Shown in pieces: positions 7,143-20,784 of a stretch of DNA of 54,498 nt. The stretch's first letter is position 1. Each line of letters opens with the position of its first letter. Under the pieces are notes generated by a model that was given only the letters and a program-made list of their open reading frames with translations, did no database searches and was not told where the DNA came from. A program made the position numbers and the translations under genes. Origin of the DNA: a virus; the IMG/VR virus record IMGVR_UViG_3300021425_000050, positions 1 to 54,498 of that record, one strand, 5' to 3'.

Positions 7143-8723
7143 ATGGCAACAGTAATTCAAATTAAAAGAAGCACAGGAGCAACAGCGCCGACAGTCTCAG
7201 ACTTGTCAGAAGGCGAATTAGCTTATGTGCAAGACCGTTCGAATTCAGGTGCTTCTGCTAAATTGTTCATAGAATCTGTAGACTCATTAGGGGCGGCAGT
7301 CATTCACGAAGTTGGTGGTAAATACTACACCGATATCGTAGATGGTTCATCTGCTACACCTAACGACTGGTTAGTCGGTAATGGGTCATCATCAGGTGGT
7401 ACATTAAAACTTATGGAAGATTCCGATAACGGAACAAACTTCATAGGTCTTAAAGCTGCTGATACATTGGGTTCTAGTGTAACATTTACAGTGCCTAGTT
7501 CAGACGGTTCGAATGGACAAGTTTTAGGAACAGACGGTTCTGGAAACTTATCTTTCTTATCAACAACATCAACACTTGAAGGTGCAACAGATACAGATAT
7601 TTCTAGCCCAGCAGCAGGACATGTTCTTGTTCATGACGGTTCAGATTCATTTGATAATGTCGCAATTTCAGGTGACGCAACATTAGCCGCTAATGGTGCT
7701 CTAACAATCGCAAACAGTGCCGTTGAACTCGGTATGATTGACTTCTTTGTTGACGAAGATGACATGTCTTCTGATTCAGATGTCAAAGTTCCTTCACAAC
7801 AATCTGTTAAAGCATATGTTGATTCACAAGTAACTGCTCAAGACTTAGACATGGCAGGTGACAGTGGAACAGGTTCTGTCGACTTAGACTCACAATCAAT
7901 CACTTTCACTGGTGGAACAGGTGTAGATACTTCTGTTTCAGGTCAAGCAGTAACATTTGCAATCGGTCAGTCAGTTGGAACATCAGACAATGTGACATTT
8001 AACAATGTCGATGTTGACGGTACACTTACATCAGACGATATTACATCAACTAACATTTCTGCTTCAGGAAACTTAACTGTTTCAGGAAACTTAACTGTTA
8101 ACGGTACAACAACTACAGTAAACTCAACAACTACATCAGTTGCTGACCCTGTTTTTGAAATCGGTGATGACGCTTCAGATGACAACCTAGACAGAGGTAT
8201 TAAATTTAAGTATAACGATGGTTCTGCTAAAGTTGGTTTCTTTGGTTTAGATGATTCATCAGGTAAATTCGTTGCATTAAGTTCAGCAACAGATAATTCA
8301 TCAACATTTACTGGTACAGCTATGAACGCAGTATTCGGTGGAATCGAAGGTACAGGACTTGCATTAAGTGGTTCAATCACTTCAATAGACGGTGCTGCCC
8401 CAACTGCTGGTCAGTTAATGATTGGTAACGGTTCAAACGGAGATATGGAACTTGCAGTTTTAACTGCTGGCGAAGGTATCGATGTAACCAATGCTGACGG
8501 TGCGATAACAATCGCTGCTGAAGTTGGTACAGATGCTAACTTAGGTGCTGTTATCGTTGCTGCTGGTGAAGGTATGGACGCTTCATACTCAGGTGGAACA
8601 GTAACCGTGAGTGGTGAAGATGCATCTACATCTAATAAAGGTATTGCTTCTTTTGTAAGTGATAACTTTACAGTATCATCAGGCGCAGTTTCAATCACTG
8701 CTATTGACGGCGGAACATTTTAA
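7143..8723 (+). CDS. Tail fibre protein with Mtd-like N-terminus
   Basis: 526 residues. The start MATVIQIKRSTGA..LSEGELAY resembles the N-terminal domain of the major tropism determinant family, a virion attachment domain. It is almost repeated in the next gene. The centre has fibre-shaft beta repeats (GNLTVSGNLTVNGTTTTVNS, then TSVADPVFEIGDDASDD), a module also seen at 10077 and 11204. Further on are QVLGTDGSGNLSF-type repeats. It ends AIDGGTF. A strong TTTTTTAGGAG site lies 7 nt before the ATG, after a long leader from a TATAAATA box. Probably a major fibre component. It cannot be said which host surface it contacts. Confidence 0.75.
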   Translation: MATVIQIKRSTGATAPTVSDLSEGELAYVQDRSNSGASAKLFIESVDSLGAAVIHEVGGKYYTDIVDGSSATPNDWLVGNGSSSGGTLKLMEDSDNGTNFIGLKAADTLGSSVTFTVPSSDGSNGQVLGTDGSGNLSFLSTTSTLEGATDTDISSPAAGHVLVHDGSDSFDNVAISGDATLAANGALTIANSAVELGMIDFFVDEDDMSSDSDVKVPSQQSVKAYVDSQVTAQDLDMAGDSGTGSVDLDSQSITFTGGTGVDTSVSGQAVTFAIGQSVGTSDNVTFNNVDVDGTLTSDDITSTNISASGNLTVSGNLTVNGTTTTVNSTTTSVADPVFEIGDDASDDNLDRGIKFKYNDGSAKVGFFGLDDSSGKFVALSSATDNSSTFTGTAMNAVFGGIEGTGLALSGSITSIDGAAPTAGQLMIGNGSNGDMELAVLTAGEGIDVTNADGAITIAAEVGTDANLGAVIVAAGEGMDASYSGGTVTVSGEDASTSNKGIASFVSDNFTVSSGAVSITAIDGGTF

Positions 8724-13239: not shown

Positions 13240-14859
13240 ATGGCAACAGGCTCACAGAAGGTAAAAACACCCTCAGGTTGGAATTCAACGCAAGGGGCAT
13301 GGGTAAAAACAGGAACATCAACTTGGAAGGCAGTCGACCAAATCTATGTGAAGACACCTTCTGGTTGGAATAATGCTTCTGGTCAAGAATCGGTTCAACA
13401 ACCGTATCCTTACATCGCAAATGCCCAAGAACCTAATATAAGAGATGCTCAACAACCTTATCCTTATATTGCAAATGCCCAAGAACCTAATATCAGAGAT
13501 GCTCAGCAACCTTATCCTTACATTGCGAATGCACAAAGTCCATTTATTAGAAACGGTCAACAACCTGCGATATATCAAAATCCGGTAAATGCACAAAGTC
13601 CATTTATTAGAAATGCTCAAGAACCGAACATAAGGTCAGCACAAGAACCTAATATTAGAAACGCACAAACACCGTTTACATATCAACACAGGTCACCTTT
13701 TACATACAGAGACCCAAGGTCATATAGAAATCCGTTTACATATCAACACAGGTCTCCATTTACATATCGAAACCCTGTAGATTATAGAGTGCCTTCGACT
13801 TATCAACACAGGTCACCTTCTACATATAGAGACCCAAGGTCATACAGAGTACCATTTACATATCAACACAGGTCTCCTTTTACATATAGAGACCCAAGGT
13901 CGTATAGAGTACCATTCACTTATAGTCACAGGTCGCCGTTTACATATCGAAACCCTGTTGGTTATAATATGCCGTTTACATATCAACACAGGTCGCCTTT
14001 CACATATCAGTCTAGACAACCTAACAGTGCAAGACAACCAGTTGCATACAGGTCACCGTTTACATATAGAAACCCTGTATCAGCACAACAACCAGTTGCA
14101 TTTAGGTCACCATTTACATACAGTGCTAGATATCCTGCTAACATTCAACAACCGGTAACATATCAGTCGCCGTTTACATACAGTGCTAGATATCCTGCAA
14201 ACGCTCAACAACCGAATAGTGCTAGACAACCTTTTACATATCAGGCAAGACAACCTGTTTATTTTCCACCCCCTCCAGGTGGCGGTTTCGGTTGTTTCCC
14301 TGCTGGGTCAATGGTCTGGTTGGCAGATGGTTCACATGTTGCTATCGAAACTGTCGAAGTTGGACAAAATGTTTGGACTTGGAACGAAGAACTCAATACA
14401 TTGGAAATCAATGCTGTCGAATACTGTATGAAACCAAGAGTTGTTTCAGTATGGGATATTTACTTATCAGATGGTAGAGTATTACAAACAACAGATGACC
14501 ACCCAATTAAGATTGCAGGTGTCGAAGGTTGGGGTGCTTTAAATCCTGAATTAACTGTAGAAAGACACGAATGGTTGTCAGATGATATGACACATACATT
14601 AGAAGTAGGAACTAGAATATTCACTATGACTGATGCAGTTCTATACGGTAAAGAATCAGAAGAAGTAGTAATAGAAAAAATAGAACAAAATGATGAAATG
14701 GTAGTGTATAACTTATCAGCGATTGCTAATACAGGAACATTCTTTGTTAACGGAGTTTTAGTTCATAACTACTATAACCCAATCACTGGTGAGTATGAAA
14801 ACACACCGAACTTGATGGAAGACAAATTAGACCCTGGTTTCACACCACTACCAAAATAG
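13240..14859 (+). CDS. Pro/Tyr-rich repeat protein with C-terminal Hint (intein/hedgehog) domain
   Basis: 539 residues. Residues 1-50 hold two VKTPSGWN motifs. Residues ~55-345 are pure repeats (YQHRSPFTYRDP, SYRVPFTY, NAQEPNIRDAQQP). Then PPPPGGGFG leads into a Hint domain at residues 352-510. It starts with Cys352 (CFPAGSMVWLADGS), has the block-B TTDDHP with His421, and ends VLVHN with His509-Asn510. These are the catalytic residues of protein autocleavage or splicing. Asn510 is followed by Tyr, not Cys/Ser/Thr, so standard splicing is unlikely and self-cleavage more likely, as in bacterial intein-like domains. About 29 residues follow. Hint domains typically cleave and may transfer the N-terminal part to a nucleophile. 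Confidence 0.85.
   Translation: MATGSQKVKTPSGWNSTQGAWVKTGTSTWKAVDQIYVKTPSGWNNASGQESVQQPYPYIANAQEPNIRDAQQPYPYIANAQEPNIRDAQQPYPYIANAQSPFIRNGQQPAIYQNPVNAQSPFIRNAQEPNIRSAQEPNIRNAQTPFTYQHRSPFTYRDPRSYRNPFTYQHRSPFTYRNPVDYRVPSTYQHRSPSTYRDPRSYRVPFTYQHRSPFTYRDPRSYRVPFTYSHRSPFTYRNPVGYNMPFTYQHRSPFTYQSRQPNSARQPVAYRSPFTYRNPVSAQQPVAFRSPFTYSARYPANIQQPVTYQSPFTYSARYPANAQQPNSARQPFTYQARQPVYFPPPPGGGFGCFPAGSMVWLADGSHVAIETVEVGQNVWTWNEELNTLEINAVEYCMKPRVVSVWDIYLSDGRVLQTTDDHPIKIAGVEGWGALNPELTVERHEWLSDDMTHTLEVGTRIFTMTDAVLYGKESEEVVIEKIEQNDEMVVYNLSAIANTGTFFVNGVLVHNYYNPITGEYENTPNLMEDKLDPGFTPLPK
13396..14260 (+). repeat. Coding repeats: Tyr/Gln/Arg-x-Pro units, block 3
   Basis: The most regular array. Units such as TTTACATATCAACACAGGTC (coding FTYQHRS), GACCCAAGGTCATA and AATGCCCAAGAACCTAATAT recur with spacing mostly 18-48 nt. 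Several units are nearly identical at DNA level, which suggests recent duplication or recombination. Confidence 0.85.
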
Positions 14860-14876
14860 GAGTATGAGAGAATAAT

Positions 14877-15809
14877 ATGCCAGATTTTCAATCACCTTAC
14901 ATTGCAAATGGTCAAAACCCATTTACATTTAGGGCCCCATTTACATATAGAGTTCCTTATATTGCGAATGCAAGACAACCAGTTGCATTTAGGTCACCGT
15001 TTACATATAGGGTCCCTTACATCGCTAATGCTCAGCAACCGAATACATACAGGTCACCTTTCACTTACAGAAACCCTGTAAATGCTCAACAACCTGTCAC
15101 ATTCCAATCACCGTTTACATTCCAATCACCTTATATTGCGAATGCTCAAGAACCGAATATCAGGTCAGCACAAACTCCAAGAGGATATCGTGTACCTGTT
15201 TCTGCTCAAGAACCGAATATTAGAAACGCTCAACAACCTGCTGGTTATAGATTACCTGTTAATGCTCAAGAACCGAATATCAGGTCAGCACAACAACCTG
15301 CTGGTTATAGATTGCCTGTTAATGCTCAAGAACCGAATATTAGAAACAGACAAACACCTGCAAAATATCAGAATCCAGTAAACGCTCAGGAACCTAATAT
15401 TAGAAACGCACAACAGCCTGCTGGTTATCAGCATCCTGTTTCTGCTCAACAACCTAATATTAGAGATGCAAGACAACCATCGACTTATCAACATAGGTCT
15501 CCGTTTACTTATAATCATAGGTCTCCATTTACTTATCAACATAGGTCTCCGTCTACATATAGAGACCCTGTAAGTTATAGAGTTCCATTTACATATCAAC
15601 ATAGAAGTCCTTCGACATATGCAACACAAGGTCAGACACCGTTTACATATCAACACAGGTCTCCTTTCACATATGCAAGACAAGGTCAAACACCGTTTAC
15701 CTATCAACATAGAAGTCCGTTTACATATGCAACACAAGGAAGAACACCAGTAATCCGTTGGGATGGTGATTTGAATCAAAATTGGCCAGGTACTCCAGTG
15801 TCGTCATAA
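14877..15809 (+). CDS. Pro/Tyr-rich repeat protein (repeats only)
   Basis: 310 residues, almost entirely repeats: FTYRVPYIANAQQP, VNAQEPNIRSAQQPAGYRLP (several copies), YQHRSPFTYNHRSPFTY, then YATQGQTPFTYQHRSP. A short hydrophilic end follows (RWDGDLNQNWPGTPVSS). There is no globular domain, signal peptide or membrane segment. It lacks the Hint domain of the upstream paralogue, which makes it a possible partner or substrate. AGGAG lies 11 nt before the ATG. It is the last of four proteins with this grammar, just before the glycosyltransferase and oxygenase genes. Confidence 0.75.
   Translation: MPDFQSPYIANGQNPFTFRAPFTYRVPYIANARQPVAFRSPFTYRVPYIANAQQPNTYRSPFTYRNPVNAQQPVTFQSPFTFQSPYIANAQEPNIRSAQTPRGYRVPVSAQEPNIRNAQQPAGYRLPVNAQEPNIRSAQQPAGYRLPVNAQEPNIRNRQTPAKYQNPVNAQEPNIRNAQQPAGYQHPVSAQQPNIRDARQPSTYQHRSPFTYNHRSPFTYQHRSPSTYRDPVSYRVPFTYQHRSPSTYATQGQTPFTYQHRSPFTYARQGQTPFTYQHRSPFTYATQGRTPVIRWDGDLNQNWPGTPVSS
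14880..15750 (+). repeat. Coding repeats: Tyr/Gln/Arg-x-Pro units, block 4
   Basis: The tandem AATGCTCAAGAACCGAATAT / CAACAACCTGCTGGTTATAG words (coding NAQEPNIR and QQPAGYR) and ACTTATCAACATAGGTCTCC words (coding TYQHRSP) repeat up to five times each. Confidence 0.85.
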
Positions 15810-15812
15810 ATA
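15805..15812 (+). promoter_or_regulatory. Late promoter CATAAATA
   Basis: The box overlaps the TAA stop of the repeat protein. The predicted start is ~15818, 22 nt before the glycosyltransferase ATG. No Shine-Dalgarno is visible in that leader. Confidence 0.6.
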
Positions 15813-15839
15813 TAGTTAACTAATAACTATTTTTATATT

Positions 15840-17423
15840 ATGCAACAGATAGACCACGATATTATTTTAAAACTTTTTAGCGAAGACAGAGAAGACTGGA
15901 AAGAAAAACATTTCTATAAACACATCGGTTCGATGAATCTTAGTGAAGATTGGGAACAATCTACAACATGGAAAAATGTTTCATGGTTGTATGAAAATAG
16001 ATTACCTAAACTTAAAAAGGTGACATGGGGTGATGTTTCAAAACTTCAAAAAGAAGGCAAACTCATAGGTTGGAATCAACTACAATCTCAAGCATTCGGT
16101 TATCATTATTTCTTACCTTTAGGTTGGACTGCTAAACCTGAATTTCCAGCACCTGGTAAATCAGGTATGGATTTTATAAACATCAATGGTGAATATGAAA
16201 ATATTTGCAATCATGTAAGATTCGATGATGTAGATTATGAACCTGATGAAGGTAAAAAAGGCAATTTAGATTCAGTTTACTATCATGATGCCAAAGCACA
16301 TTGGTTAGTAGATAGTATTAGAAGAGATGGTCTTTGGAATCCTATTCAAGGTGTTGTAGCACCAGCACATGATGACAAGTATAAACTATCAATACACCCA
16401 GGTTCTGTAAGGTCACCTGTATTCGAATGTTTAGATGATGAATCTTTACAAATGTGGATATGGGATGATTACGATTTATTTGATTGGATACCTGAATATA
16501 CTTTACATACATTACTAACTGATTTATCTAATCACCCAAAAATGGGTCAAAGAGATATGGGTAAAAAGAATGTCTCTTTTGGATATACTCATGGTTATAT
16601 GGAGATATCTACTGAACTACAACAATTAACTTTTAGAAGTGATGTTTATGAATTCAATGAAAGAATTGCAAAAATGGCACAAGGTAAAAGAATAAACATC
16701 TACATTGGATATGATTCTCGTCATAAAGAAATTGCAGAATTAAACGCATGGACAATGTTGAAATCTATTCAACAAGGTTTTGGTGGGGGTGATGTTCATG
16801 GAACAATGAAACATTGGATACCTGAAATCAAATTCTTAGACATATCAAAGATACCAGAATATACTAGAGATTATGCTCAACAATCAACAGAGTTTACATA
16901 CAGTCGTTTCTTAATACCATACTTAGAAAACTACAAAGGGTTTAGTATTTTCTTAGATGATGATATACTTTTTACCAAGAGTATATTACCGATGTTCTAT
17001 TTCTTAAATCCAGATGATGCAGTTGCATGTATCAAATATGACTTTGAAAAACATAACGATACAAAGTTTGACGGTGAAAAGAATGTAAACTATCCTAAAA
17101 AATTATGGTCTTCATTAATGATATTTAATAACGGTCATGAAGATTGTAAGAAACTAACACCAGATGTAGTTAATACACAAACAGGAAAGTATCTACATCA
17201 ATTCGAATGGACAGATAAAATATCAGATATACCTCAACACTATATATTTACAGAAGGCTACGATACAGACGAATCAAGTTGGCGTCCATCTGCTATACAT
17301 TATACAAGAGGTGGTCCATGGATTGACAATATGGATACATCTAATATTGATAAACTTGATGAATACGAAAGATTGTATAATAAGTGGTTGAACTATAAAA
17401 AACAAAATGATATAATGGAGTGA
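15840..17423 (+). CDS. ParB-like domain fused to GT-A glycosyltransferase
   Basis: 527 residues. The first ~240 residues include AHWLVDSIRRDGLWNPIQGV and KLSIHPGSVRSPVFE. This resembles ParB/sulfiredoxin-type nucleotide-binding folds seen in marine phages, and the match is partial. From residue ~275 a GT8-like glycosyltransferase follows: RINIYIGYDSRHKEIAELNA, a conserved EFTYSRFLIPYL, and the DxD-type metal-binding motif FLDDDIL, with WSSLMIFN and HYTRGGPW later. GT-A enzymes of this type move a sugar from a nucleotide donor to an acceptor. Lying directly after the repeat proteins, it may glycosylate virion protein or host surface glycan; neither is shown. Confidence 0.7.
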   Translation: MQQIDHDIILKLFSEDREDWKEKHFYKHIGSMNLSEDWEQSTTWKNVSWLYENRLPKLKKVTWGDVSKLQKEGKLIGWNQLQSQAFGYHYFLPLGWTAKPEFPAPGKSGMDFININGEYENICNHVRFDDVDYEPDEGKKGNLDSVYYHDAKAHWLVDSIRRDGLWNPIQGVVAPAHDDKYKLSIHPGSVRSPVFECLDDESLQMWIWDDYDLFDWIPEYTLHTLLTDLSNHPKMGQRDMGKKNVSFGYTHGYMEISTELQQLTFRSDVYEFNERIAKMAQGKRINIYIGYDSRHKEIAELNAWTMLKSIQQGFGGGDVHGTMKHWIPEIKFLDISKIPEYTRDYAQQSTEFTYSRFLIPYLENYKGFSIFLDDDILFTKSILPMFYFLNPDDAVACIKYDFEKHNDTKFDGEKNVNYPKKLWSSLMIFNNGHEDCKKLTPDVVNTQTGKYLHQFEWTDKISDIPQHYIFTEGYDTDESSWRPSAIHYTRGGPWIDNMDTSNIDKLDEYERLYNKWLNYKKQNDIME

Positions 17424-17425
17424 TT

Positions 17426-17977
17426 ATGAATATGTTAATTTATTGTGAGAACGGAAATCTCACTATCAGAAAACCAAACGGACTACAATATACATTTGAG
17501 AATACAGATAAACCTGAATTAGGGTTTCATTATGATGTATTAATCTACGATGATATTGAATGTAAGATTTTAGAATGGGAAGATGACAAACCATTTGAAG
17601 AACAGAAACAAATTGCATTGAATGAAGAAGAGATTGATGCTATCGAATCATATATTGAGAACTCAGTTCCACCTGAAAATGTAAGTCTCAATGGTCAATA
17701 CAGTGAAGACTTGAATAATCAAGCGAAACAGTATATACTAGAAATGTGTAATGCATATGGTTTCGCACACGAAGTTGAAGTTCTAATGGCAGGTCGTGAA
17801 GGTTCAAATCACCCTTACAGGTCAGATGCAAGAAGAGTCATGGAATATGTTGATGCTGTCTGGAATGTATATGTAAATGTGATGAACGAAATAAGACAAA
17901 CAAGGGAAGATACTCTAAAACCTTTTGAAGATTATAGTTCACAAATACCTACGCCTAGAAAAGCACAAACAAACTAA
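17426..17977 (+). CDS. Hypothetical protein, possible fibre-assembly helper
   Basis: 183 residues. I chose the ATG at 17426 because GGAG lies 6 nt upstream; the GTG at 17420 is less likely. The N-terminal ~60 residues resemble tail assembly chaperone openings (MLIYCENGNLTIRKPNGLQY, then FHYDVLIYDDIECKILEWED). The C-terminal half is helical with HEVEVLMAGREGSNHPYRSDARR and AVWNVYVNVMNEI. This recalls DUF4376-type fibre chaperone tails, but I am not certain. It lies between the glycosyltransferase and the sulfotransferase/oxygenase, with a 2-nt gap upstream and none downstream. A role in fibre maturation is inferred from position only. Confidence 0.6.
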   Translation: MNMLIYCENGNLTIRKPNGLQYTFENTDKPELGFHYDVLIYDDIECKILEWEDDKPFEEQKQIALNEEEIDAIESYIENSVPPENVSLNGQYSEDLNNQAKQYILEMCNAYGFAHEVEVLMAGREGSNHPYRSDARRVMEYVDAVWNVYVNVMNEIRQTREDTLKPFEDYSSQIPTPRKAQTN

Positions 17978-19222
17978 ATGAGAATTCTTGTAATTGCTAC
18001 CATTAGGTGTGGTGGAACTTATTTCGCCGAGTCAATTGCAAATAATCACAATTTAGATTACATACATGAACCAAAGTTTAAGAACTTAGGTGCAACAAAT
18101 AAAGATAATGTTGTTGTTAAAATTTTAACACATGCACCTTTTACAGACATAAAGAAGATTATCGAATACTCTAAAAACTTTGATAGAGTTTATGTGTTAG
18201 ATAGAAAGGATAAAGAAGAACAATTAAGGTCTGTTTATTCTCTCTATGAATATCCAAAAGAATCTGCTCATAGTAGTTATCATTGGGATGATTCTATGTT
18301 CGAAAAAGAGAACCCTAAAGATACAAAAGAAGAGTATGAATCATGGATAAATAAATTTACTGAACAAGTAAATACAATTGCTTCTATCTTAAATAAAGAT
18401 ATTCTATATTATGAAGACTTGTATTACGGTAAAGTTGAATTAAAAGATATAAAGTTTATGCCAGATACATCTGAAAGATTAAGAAAAGAACCTATAAAGA
18501 TAGAGTATAAAGATAGTCCTTTCAATGTAAAAGACTTACCCTTAGATAGAGTTTATGTATTCGATAATTACTTAGAAAATTCTCTTTGGAAATTTATAGA
18601 TAAACAACTAACTCAATCATCTACATGGGCGAAAACAAATCAAGTAAATTCACAACATAAGACAGGTTTACCTCATCATAGTTTTTGGGGAACATCTATT
18701 CTAAGAGCAGATGAACATGGTAATGGATACTTAGATTATGATGCAGGTTGGACTGAATCATCAGGTGCATTGTTTAGATGGTTCAATAGAAGAATATGCA
18801 CCGACTTTGGGTTTAAATGGAAAAGATTTCAGTATATGGGTACGAATAGTCAAACCCAAGGACTAGAAGGCACAACTCATGCAGATTGCCAAAAAGATGA
18901 TGAATGGAATCTATCATTTCTATATTATTACAATAGTTATTGGAATGAAGAATGGGGTGGTGATTTAAGATTCTATGATGATGTTCCACAACATGGTCGT
19001 ATGGGTCGTGAAGAACATATAAAGAATCATCAAATCGGAAGTGTTGAGTTTGTTCCGAATAGACTTATAATGTTTGACGGTAGAATACCCCATGGTGCAG
19101 ATGCCCCTAATAGTAAAGCAAGATATATGGACAGAAGGTCTATTGTATTGAGAGGAGATGAAGTTCAACTAGTAGACGAGGAGGAAATGTTTAATGCCAA
19201 CGATAGATTTTACAACATTTAA
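17978..19222 (+). CDS. Sulfotransferase-like domain fused to 2OG-Fe(II) oxygenase
   Basis: 414 residues. The N-terminal ~190 residues look like a sulfotransferase: a 5' phosphosulfate-loop-like ATIRCGGTYFAESIA at the start and VYVLDRKDKEEQLRSVYSLY matching the family's R-x-D..Q..S motif. The C-terminal ~215 residues are a prolyl-4-hydroxylase-like 2OG-Fe(II) dioxygenase. The iron ligands are visible as His301-x-Asp303 (THADC) and His372 (RIPHGAD), with RRS for 2OG further on, and EWGGDLRFYDD before them. Both activities would modify protein or glycan. It starts directly after the previous stop. I infer a bifunctional modifying enzyme; the substrate is unknown. Confidence 0.75.
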   Translation: MRILVIATIRCGGTYFAESIANNHNLDYIHEPKFKNLGATNKDNVVVKILTHAPFTDIKKIIEYSKNFDRVYVLDRKDKEEQLRSVYSLYEYPKESAHSSYHWDDSMFEKENPKDTKEEYESWINKFTEQVNTIASILNKDILYYEDLYYGKVELKDIKFMPDTSERLRKEPIKIEYKDSPFNVKDLPLDRVYVFDNYLENSLWKFIDKQLTQSSTWAKTNQVNSQHKTGLPHHSFWGTSILRADEHGNGYLDYDAGWTESSGALFRWFNRRICTDFGFKWKRFQYMGTNSQTQGLEGTTHADCQKDDEWNLSFLYYYNSYWNEEWGGDLRFYDDVPQHGRMGREEHIKNHQIGSVEFVPNRLIMFDGRIPHGADAPNSKARYMDRRSIVLRGDEVQLVDEEEMFNANDRFYNI

Positions 19223-20114
19223 TGAAGACTCGTTAAGAGATTTCAAACCTGTTTTAGCAAAGACATATGCACCTGATTGGTGGAAATCAGCGAAGGTTTG
19301 GAACACTGTTAGAGGTCGTCACATACAAACAATTCGTGCCTGCCCAGCTATGGACGATTGGTTGAAGTCTGGTTGGTATATACTTGCAAATAGAGACATG
19401 GAAGTATGTTTTGGTTCAAGTAAAGATGATAAGAATAGTAAGATATCTTTTACACAGGACCCCGAATGGGATTATCAAAAAAGAAGAAGAAAAGGTCTGC
19501 CAGAAGAAGGTGAAGGCCCAAATACATCTGGTTATCCTGTATATCATTCACCATCTCACCCAGCAGAACAATTCTATCATTCATTCAAATACTTACCTGA
19601 TGAAGAATCACCTGTAAGAGATGCATTCAAAATGAGAAGTGCTTGGAATATCAAAACGCCACCAGGTTATTCGTGTTTTTATCTTGACCCATTTTTATTT
19701 CAGAACGAACACTTTGCTGTGTGGCAAGGTATAATTGATACAGACTCATTCAACACTAACTATGACAATTCTCAAATCATTCTCTATCCAAGACATAGTA
19801 AAGATTTCATAATTAAAAAAGGAACACCTTTAGTTCAGATTATACCTTATAAAAGAGAAAATTGGGTTGCAACATATCAATGTATGACCGAAGAAAGTTG
19901 GCAGACTAGTCGTAGTCACATTACAAATGAACATAAAAATTTAACAATGGATGAATGGGGTAGAACAAAATATGATATGTCAATGGAAAGAGTAAACCCA
20001 ACATTAGGTCCATACAGAAACGAAGGTTATTGGCAAGAAAAAGGTAAGATGTTTAAAGAAGATGGACCGCCACCTGAATGTCCATTTCACAAAGGGGGAG
20101 AAGATGACAGTTAA
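19194..20114 (+). CDS. DUF6065-like protein
   Basis: 306 residues. Recognisable segments are YAPDWWKSAKVW, TIRACPAMDDWLKSGWYIL, WNIKTPPGYSCFYLDPFLF, IDTDSFN and IKKGTPLVQIIPYKRENW. These match my memory of the DUF6065 family, often found beside 2OG oxygenases and glycosyltransferases in marine phages and bacteria. It is probably a cupin-like fold, but no metal triad is clear to me. It overlaps the end of the previous gene by 29 nt and has a strong GAGGAGG site upstream of the ATG. It is flanked on both sides by oxygenases, suggesting it works in the same modification pathway. Confidence 0.65.
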   Translation: MPTIDFTTFNEDSLRDFKPVLAKTYAPDWWKSAKVWNTVRGRHIQTIRACPAMDDWLKSGWYILANRDMEVCFGSSKDDKNSKISFTQDPEWDYQKRRRKGLPEEGEGPNTSGYPVYHSPSHPAEQFYHSFKYLPDEESPVRDAFKMRSAWNIKTPPGYSCFYLDPFLFQNEHFAVWQGIIDTDSFNTNYDNSQIILYPRHSKDFIIKKGTPLVQIIPYKRENWVATYQCMTEESWQTSRSHITNEHKNLTMDEWGRTKYDMSMERVNPTLGPYRNEGYWQEKGKMFKEDGPPPECPFHKGGEDDS

Positions 20115-20784
20115 AAAATTATTTCCAACATATGTCTTCGAATGGGATTTTCTAGGAGAAGATAGCAACGAGTTGATGACACCTGAATATTTTAGATTGC
20201 TTAGAGAAGAAATGGACGCTATGAGAAGAAGAGACCCTGTAGGTCGTAGTGTGTCAAATGCTTATACAGGTTGGCAATCAAACGATAGAGTTGATGATAA
20301 TCCTATCTTTCAAAAATGTATTAGACAAATTAAGAAAAAGGTCAGAGAAGAGATTGGTCCAACATTGGGCATGAAGAACACAACAGTCAATTTTCACAAT
20401 GCTTGGGCAAACATTAATGATAATTTGGCATGGAACAAACCACATTTACACAATGGTTGTATGTATTCAGGCGCTTTTTATATACAAGGCGATGGTGATG
20501 AAGGTCATTTTATAGCAATAGATACTGATTATAAGTTTGTTGGAAATGTTCCTAGAAGTCAATCTGTTGTTAGAGAATCTTATAGTATTGCACCTAAAAC
20601 AGGTTTTTTAATAATGTTTCCGAGTGGTCTAATGCATATGGTCGAACCAAATCCTACTCAGAAAGATAGATATAGTATTTCATTCAATTTAGACTTTGAT
20701 GGTGATAGAAGCGAAGAAAATAATAACTCCAGTTTATCATATAAAATCAAAGACAAATACGGTAATCTTGCAATTAACGAGTAA
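20104..20784 (+). CDS. 2OG-Fe(II) oxygenase (2OG-FeII_Oxy_5 type)
   Basis: 226 residues from the ATG at 20104, supported by the AAAGGGGGAG site just upstream. The central HNAWANIND..NKPHLHNG gives His114-x-His116, and IMFPSGLMHMVEPN gives the distal His178. DRYSISFNLDF contains the Arg expected to bind 2OG. This layout matches the TIGR02466 / 2OG-FeII_Oxy_5 group. The ligand set is HxH rather than HxD, which is usual for this subgroup. The product should be a hydroxylase; the target is unknown. It is the second oxygenase of this cluster, overlapping the DUF6065-like gene. Confidence 0.75.
   Translation: MTVKKLFPTYVFEWDFLGEDSNELMTPEYFRLLREEMDAMRRRDPVGRSVSNAYTGWQSNDRVDDNPIFQKCIRQIKKKVREEIGPTLGMKNTTVNFHNAWANINDNLAWNKPHLHNGCMYSGAFYIQGDGDEGHFIAIDTDYKFVGNVPRSQSVVRESYSIAPKTGFLIMFPSGLMHMVEPNPTQKDRYSISFNLDFDGDRSEENNNSSLSYKIKDKYGNLAINE

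Follow-up and report, generated by a model that had tools for sequence, protein, structure and literature searches.

The repeat protein described here most probably carries at its C-terminus a type A bacterial intein-like (BIL) domain that removes itself from the protein post-translationally, in one marine T4-like phage lineage; we put the probability of this at about two in three. Intein-like domains normally excise themselves from their host protein. The domain is real, conserved and of the BIL kind, and its host protein is new for BILs. The type A BIL reading is based on sequence, predicted fold, conservation, clade and the alternative C-termini of relatives, and from these we infer every chemical step and any role in the virion. 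The window, by which we mean the whole 54,498-nucleotide stretch of DNA analysed, is IMG/VR virus record IMGVR_UViG_3300021425_000050 and comes from a marine T4-like bacteriophage that is uncultured. Its genes include those for terminase, tail sheath, portal, scaffold and peptidase, which point to a contractile-tailed phage of T4 type. The features needed below are as follows.

13240..14859, + strand: whole gene, repeat protein with C-terminal Hint domain, 539 aa (ORF call; orthologues)
13240..13386, + strand: N-terminal module, residues 1-49, with two VKTPSGW motifs (column conservation)
13399..14262, + strand: Pro-rich repeat region, residues 54-341, about 290 residues (proline spacing of 6 or 8 residues)
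14263..14292, + strand: linker FPPPPGGGFG with Gly run, ending at Gly351 (Gly at -1 is common in relatives)
14293..14769, + strand: Hint domain, residues 352-510 (AF2; PDB matches to BIL domains)
14293..14295, + strand: Cys352, block A nucleophile (36/36 relatives)
14491..14502, + strand: block B, Thr418-Asp-Asp-His421, His421 codon at 14500 (Thr 35/36, His 36/36)
14764..14769, + strand: block G, His509-Asn510 (each 35/36)
14770..14856, + strand: 29-residue tail, beginning with Tyr511 (+1; 14770-14772) and ending in LPK (compared with 30 distinct family tails)
14877..15809, + strand: second repeat protein, adjoining the first and without a Hint domain (present in 80/80 related loci)

The Hint domain and its predicted fold

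The initial annotation had placed a complete Hint active site behind about 290 residues of repeats. Cys352 (14293), TTDDHP with His421 (14500) and the HN pair at residues 509-510 (14764-14769) all lie where it had put them, the repeats occupy residues ~54-341, and the +1 residue is, as it said, the non-nucleophilic Tyr511, followed by the rest of a 29-aa tail. A profile of 33 relatives, built without the window protein and without its near-twin, finds the window protein with 204 bits (E 1.7e-61), and the best score among 2000 shuffles of residues 352-539 with the same profile was 10 bits. The loose motif C..TxxH..HN alone occurred in 10 of 20000 shuffles. With Pfam, the window protein scores 24.1 bits for Hint (PF01079) against a curated cut-off of 29.7 and 21.8 bits for Intein_splicing against a curated cut-off of 35.8, and Vint also matches below its cut-off; routine annotation could therefore miss this member. 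All three profiles match 13/13 members of our first alignment (E 0.01). Because a near-identical gene occurs on two more contigs, the gene is not an assembly artefact.

The AlphaFold2 (AF2) model of the Hint domain (35 sequences) had a pLDDT of 84 and a pTM of 0.81, with most of the core above 90. In the model of the full protein the repeats had a pLDDT of about 30 and no confident fold. Comparison of the predicted structure with BIL and Hedgehog Hint domains, as the initial annotation had proposed, gave BIL domains as the best PDB matches (Foldseek TM to target 0.82-0.87), followed by DnaB inteins and Hedgehog, and the sequence profile also puts BIL domains as the nearest solved structures. 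On a tree of 122 Hint domains, those of the phage repeat proteins form one clade of 35 (SH-aLRT 92); two further domains that a loose repeat pattern had caught (L181, L303) fall elsewhere and were not counted as members. A viral structure library contains proteins of uncultured phages under the names 'Hint domain' or 'Collagen triple helix repeat', so phage repeat proteins with Hint domains may already have been deposited.

Among 36 distinct aligned Hint domains, Phe2 is as invariant as Cys1 (each 36/36), and the one exception to HN in block G belongs to a different host protein. The residue at -1 is Gly in 32 of 36 relatives, a Gly run being usual in the repeat-protein family, and Gly351 is presumed to be the thioester-forming residue. 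In the window, Gly replaces the block F His (NTGTFF), a position that varies among relatives, and this may slow Asn cyclisation. At +1 the repeat-protein family has F, G, Y, M, L, A or R, and none of 30 distinct tails has C, S or T. Pairwise dN/dS for the Hint domain was 0.05-0.26 (nine pairs), by which measure it is under purifying selection. The claim of a complete Hint/BIL-type active site was thus borne out and extends across a deep clade, and for this reason self-cleavage is likely from the sequence.

The Hint domain shares with the type A BILs of C. thermocellum (2lwy) and T. thermophila (BUBL1 BIL2; 6y75, 6tmm) the fold, Cys1, TxxH and HN, a +1 residue other than Cys, Ser or Thr, and a place in a variable region of a non-conserved protein, here one with three alternative C-termini; such regions are where BILs are generally located (PMC5874633). 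It differs from them in that its host is a phage repeat protein. On this comparison it is a type A BIL and not a degraded intein, and all that we could measure agrees with this. Class 1 inteins (Ssp/Npu DnaB, gp41-1) are alike in Hint fold and in blocks A, B and G, but the window Hint lacks their +1 Cys/Ser/Thr, long C-extein and conserved enzyme site, having instead Tyr511 and a variable tail of 29 aa, and it carries no homing endonuclease. The Hedgehog Hog domain (1at0) is alike in its Gly-Cys-Phe junction, C-terminal position and fold, whereas the window protein has HN and a 29-aa tail and no sterol-recognition region. The PT-HINT profile of polymorphic toxins matched 6 of 13 relatives weakly and gave no match in the window protein, whose ORF ends 29 aa past HN with no toxin domain downstream.

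In the phage repeat family +1 is mostly Phe or Gly, with Lys at the tail end, whereas in other viral and cellular relatives +1 itself is mostly Lys. In a second viral survey, a few of whose members belong to the repeat family, +1 was Lys in 24/35 and C/S/T in 0/35; among 79 cellular relatives it was Lys in 60 and Cys in 7, and 44 had tails of 30 aa or fewer. In these two sets (L181-L230, L231-L309) the +1 Lys is often right at the C-terminus (HNK*, HNKK*, HNKV*), and three members (L201, L204, L214) may have tandem Hint domains, with a second Cys-Phe start directly after the first HN. Elsewhere, a Hint domain with the tail KLFTFNRLRLGRST closes a phage protein (L135, L136) that is 1826 aa or longer and contains DUF4815 and Calx-beta domains, and a family of ~620-aa proteins (L131, L133, L134, L140) starts with KGTFFSSDFIRDSNGELRLLE and ends in a Hint domain with the tail KV.

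Alternative C-termini and phage lineage

A search of viral contigs with the repeat part returned at least 80 orthologous loci (80 kept of 200). The second repeat protein is present in all of these, and GT8-like, 185-aa and 2OG-oxygenase genes in 77-78. In the window (13240-20784), a GT8-like glycosyltransferase and a 2OG-Fe(II) oxygenase (17978-19222) come after the two Pro-rich repeat proteins, an order kept in nearly all relatives, and a second 2OG-Fe(II) oxygenase lies at 20062-20784; these enzymes might hydroxylate or glycosylate the repeats. Many columns of the N-terminal module are invariant among 16 full-length Hint-bearing relatives.

The orthologues end in one of three ways: with a Hint domain, with a short and often Gly-rich end, or with another domain of ~90-150 aa. 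The last of these (L046-L071, L082, L083) is unannotated. That other lineages carry non-Hint domains at the same position would fit a folded Hint that never cuts in nature and serves as a C-terminal domain like these unrelated ones. We regard this as unlikely, since such a domain would not need Cys1, TxxH and HN kept across a deep clade of 30-50% identity.

On a midpoint-rooted FastTree phylogeny of the GT8-like and oxygenase proteins (48 tips), the Hint label tracks the phage lineages, changing 3 times, compared with 11.7 times with shuffled labels (minimum 7). The Hint-bearing tips are a 10-tip clade that includes the window, L072, and L073/L077. The explanation that we prefer includes fixation of the domain within a single uncultured lineage of marine T4-like phages. 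In GenBank phages, no relatives came up when the window Hint, the second repeat protein or the N-terminal module served as tblastn query. The sole match to the repeat part, in Ruminococcus phage phiRM10 (36% identity over 44%), was judged to be a composition match; BLAST masks low-complexity sequence, so relatives of the repeats may have escaped this search. Pelagibacter phage Mosig encodes a related glycosyltransferase, near which no repeat protein is annotated.

Many Hint-less orthologues have a Gly-rich stretch followed by a short tail at the C-terminus. The tail of L072 (HNRQQK*) is similar to the ends GHQQK* and GQQQK of Hint-less proteins related to it, and L035, L044 and L056, in which Phe follows the Gly run, resemble the main Hint clade. 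Because of these similarities the Hint looks like an insertion between Gly run and tail. Such a placement would also suit a decaying canonical intein, its +1 nucleophile and endonuclease already lost, and among the distant tblastn matches of other family Hints are true inteins, which lie in phage genes for helicase, terminase and the like, along with some unannotated records. We rejected this idea and consider it highly improbable, given the low dN/dS and the retention of all catalytic residues across a deep clade; in addition, the nearest relatives are BILs and the region of insertion is non-conserved.

Lys occurs within the last two residues of 29/30 tails as against 7.5% of 385 neighbour-gene ends, although the tails compared are related sequences and not independent trials. 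In several genomes the tail Lys codons overlap the likely ribosome-binding site of the next gene, and part of the signal may stem from this; overlap is no explanation for the window, L004, L040, L042 and L072, where a distinct purine-rich site lies 3' of the stop. Between the window and L004 the tail is 63% and the Hint 96% identical. The faster evolution of the tail supports the idea that it is discarded, whereas the conserved Lys and the likeness to tails of Hint-less relatives argue that it is kept.

Proposed self-processing and its alternatives

Processing by the type A BIL would begin with an N-to-S acyl shift at Gly351-Cys352, aided by Thr418 and His421. Cyclisation of Asn510, aided by His509, would then release the tail starting with Tyr511. 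The Gly351 thioester would finally be resolved by water (cleavage) or by the new alpha-amine of the tail (splicing that needs no +1 nucleophile). What is left after processing would be the repeat part ending in the Gly run, by itself or with the short tail rejoined, and either form would look like the Hint-less orthologues. The cleaved form would yield the semi-tryptic peptide QPVYFPPPPGGGFG and the spliced form the junction peptide QPVYFPPPPGGGFGYYNPITGEYENTPNLMEDK.

Type A BILs have HN without a +1 nucleophile, form an N-terminal thioester and cyclise Asn; they may ligate through the freed amine, and cleavage dominates (PMC4031507). Products of BILs are mainly cleaved (PMC7664689). The initial annotation held that normal splicing should not occur with Tyr at +1. 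This is so for the canonical route and is limited to it, because in type A BILs the freed tail amine can still splice (PMC4031507). The one experimental BIL with Tyr at +1 spliced only after a Tyr-to-Cys change (PMC4031507), which counts against our preferred explanation. A reading that we find doubtful is that this is a natural BIL for nucleophile-free ligation, in which the Hint is excised and the tail, or the side chain of a near-terminal Lys, is joined to the end of the Gly run.

The initial annotation also suggested transfer of the repeat part to another nucleophile as a way to attach or release a fibre. An amine or other nucleophile of a partner on the virion or host surface would then attack the Gly351 thioester and fix the protein covalently during assembly. 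The same active site could perform this, Gly at -1 and the flexible Gly run would keep the thioester accessible, and the Hedgehog Hint uses an external nucleophile (PMC7765530). The Hedgehog domain, however, lacks HN and has a sterol-recognition region that is absent here, and we looked for a partner and acceptor site and found none. Attachment is thus possible and not favoured, and transfer in trans appears unlikely to us. Ligation to the second repeat protein was also considered and set aside, as its N-termini share no common nucleophile. That the repeat protein is a fibre is a plausible guess made only from its neighbours, of which those at 7143 and 11204 match structural-protein PHROG 697; a PHROG search gave no structural match for the repeat protein.

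Possible meaning for BILs and for phage maturation

As far as we are aware, there is no settled view of what BIL domains are for in nature. In the open-access literature searched, we found no paper on Hint or BIL domains in phage virion proteins. The clade described here links its BILs to a single recognisable protein within a fixed gene block, and some orthologues of that protein lack the domain. Orthologues with and without the Hint offer a direct test of what use a BIL is to its host protein. If the ligation reading is true, the end of the virion protein would be matured or isopeptide-linked, and Hint-less relatives would carry such an end directly in their genes. Comparing the orthologues could show that self-processing is one of the steps by which phage particles mature.
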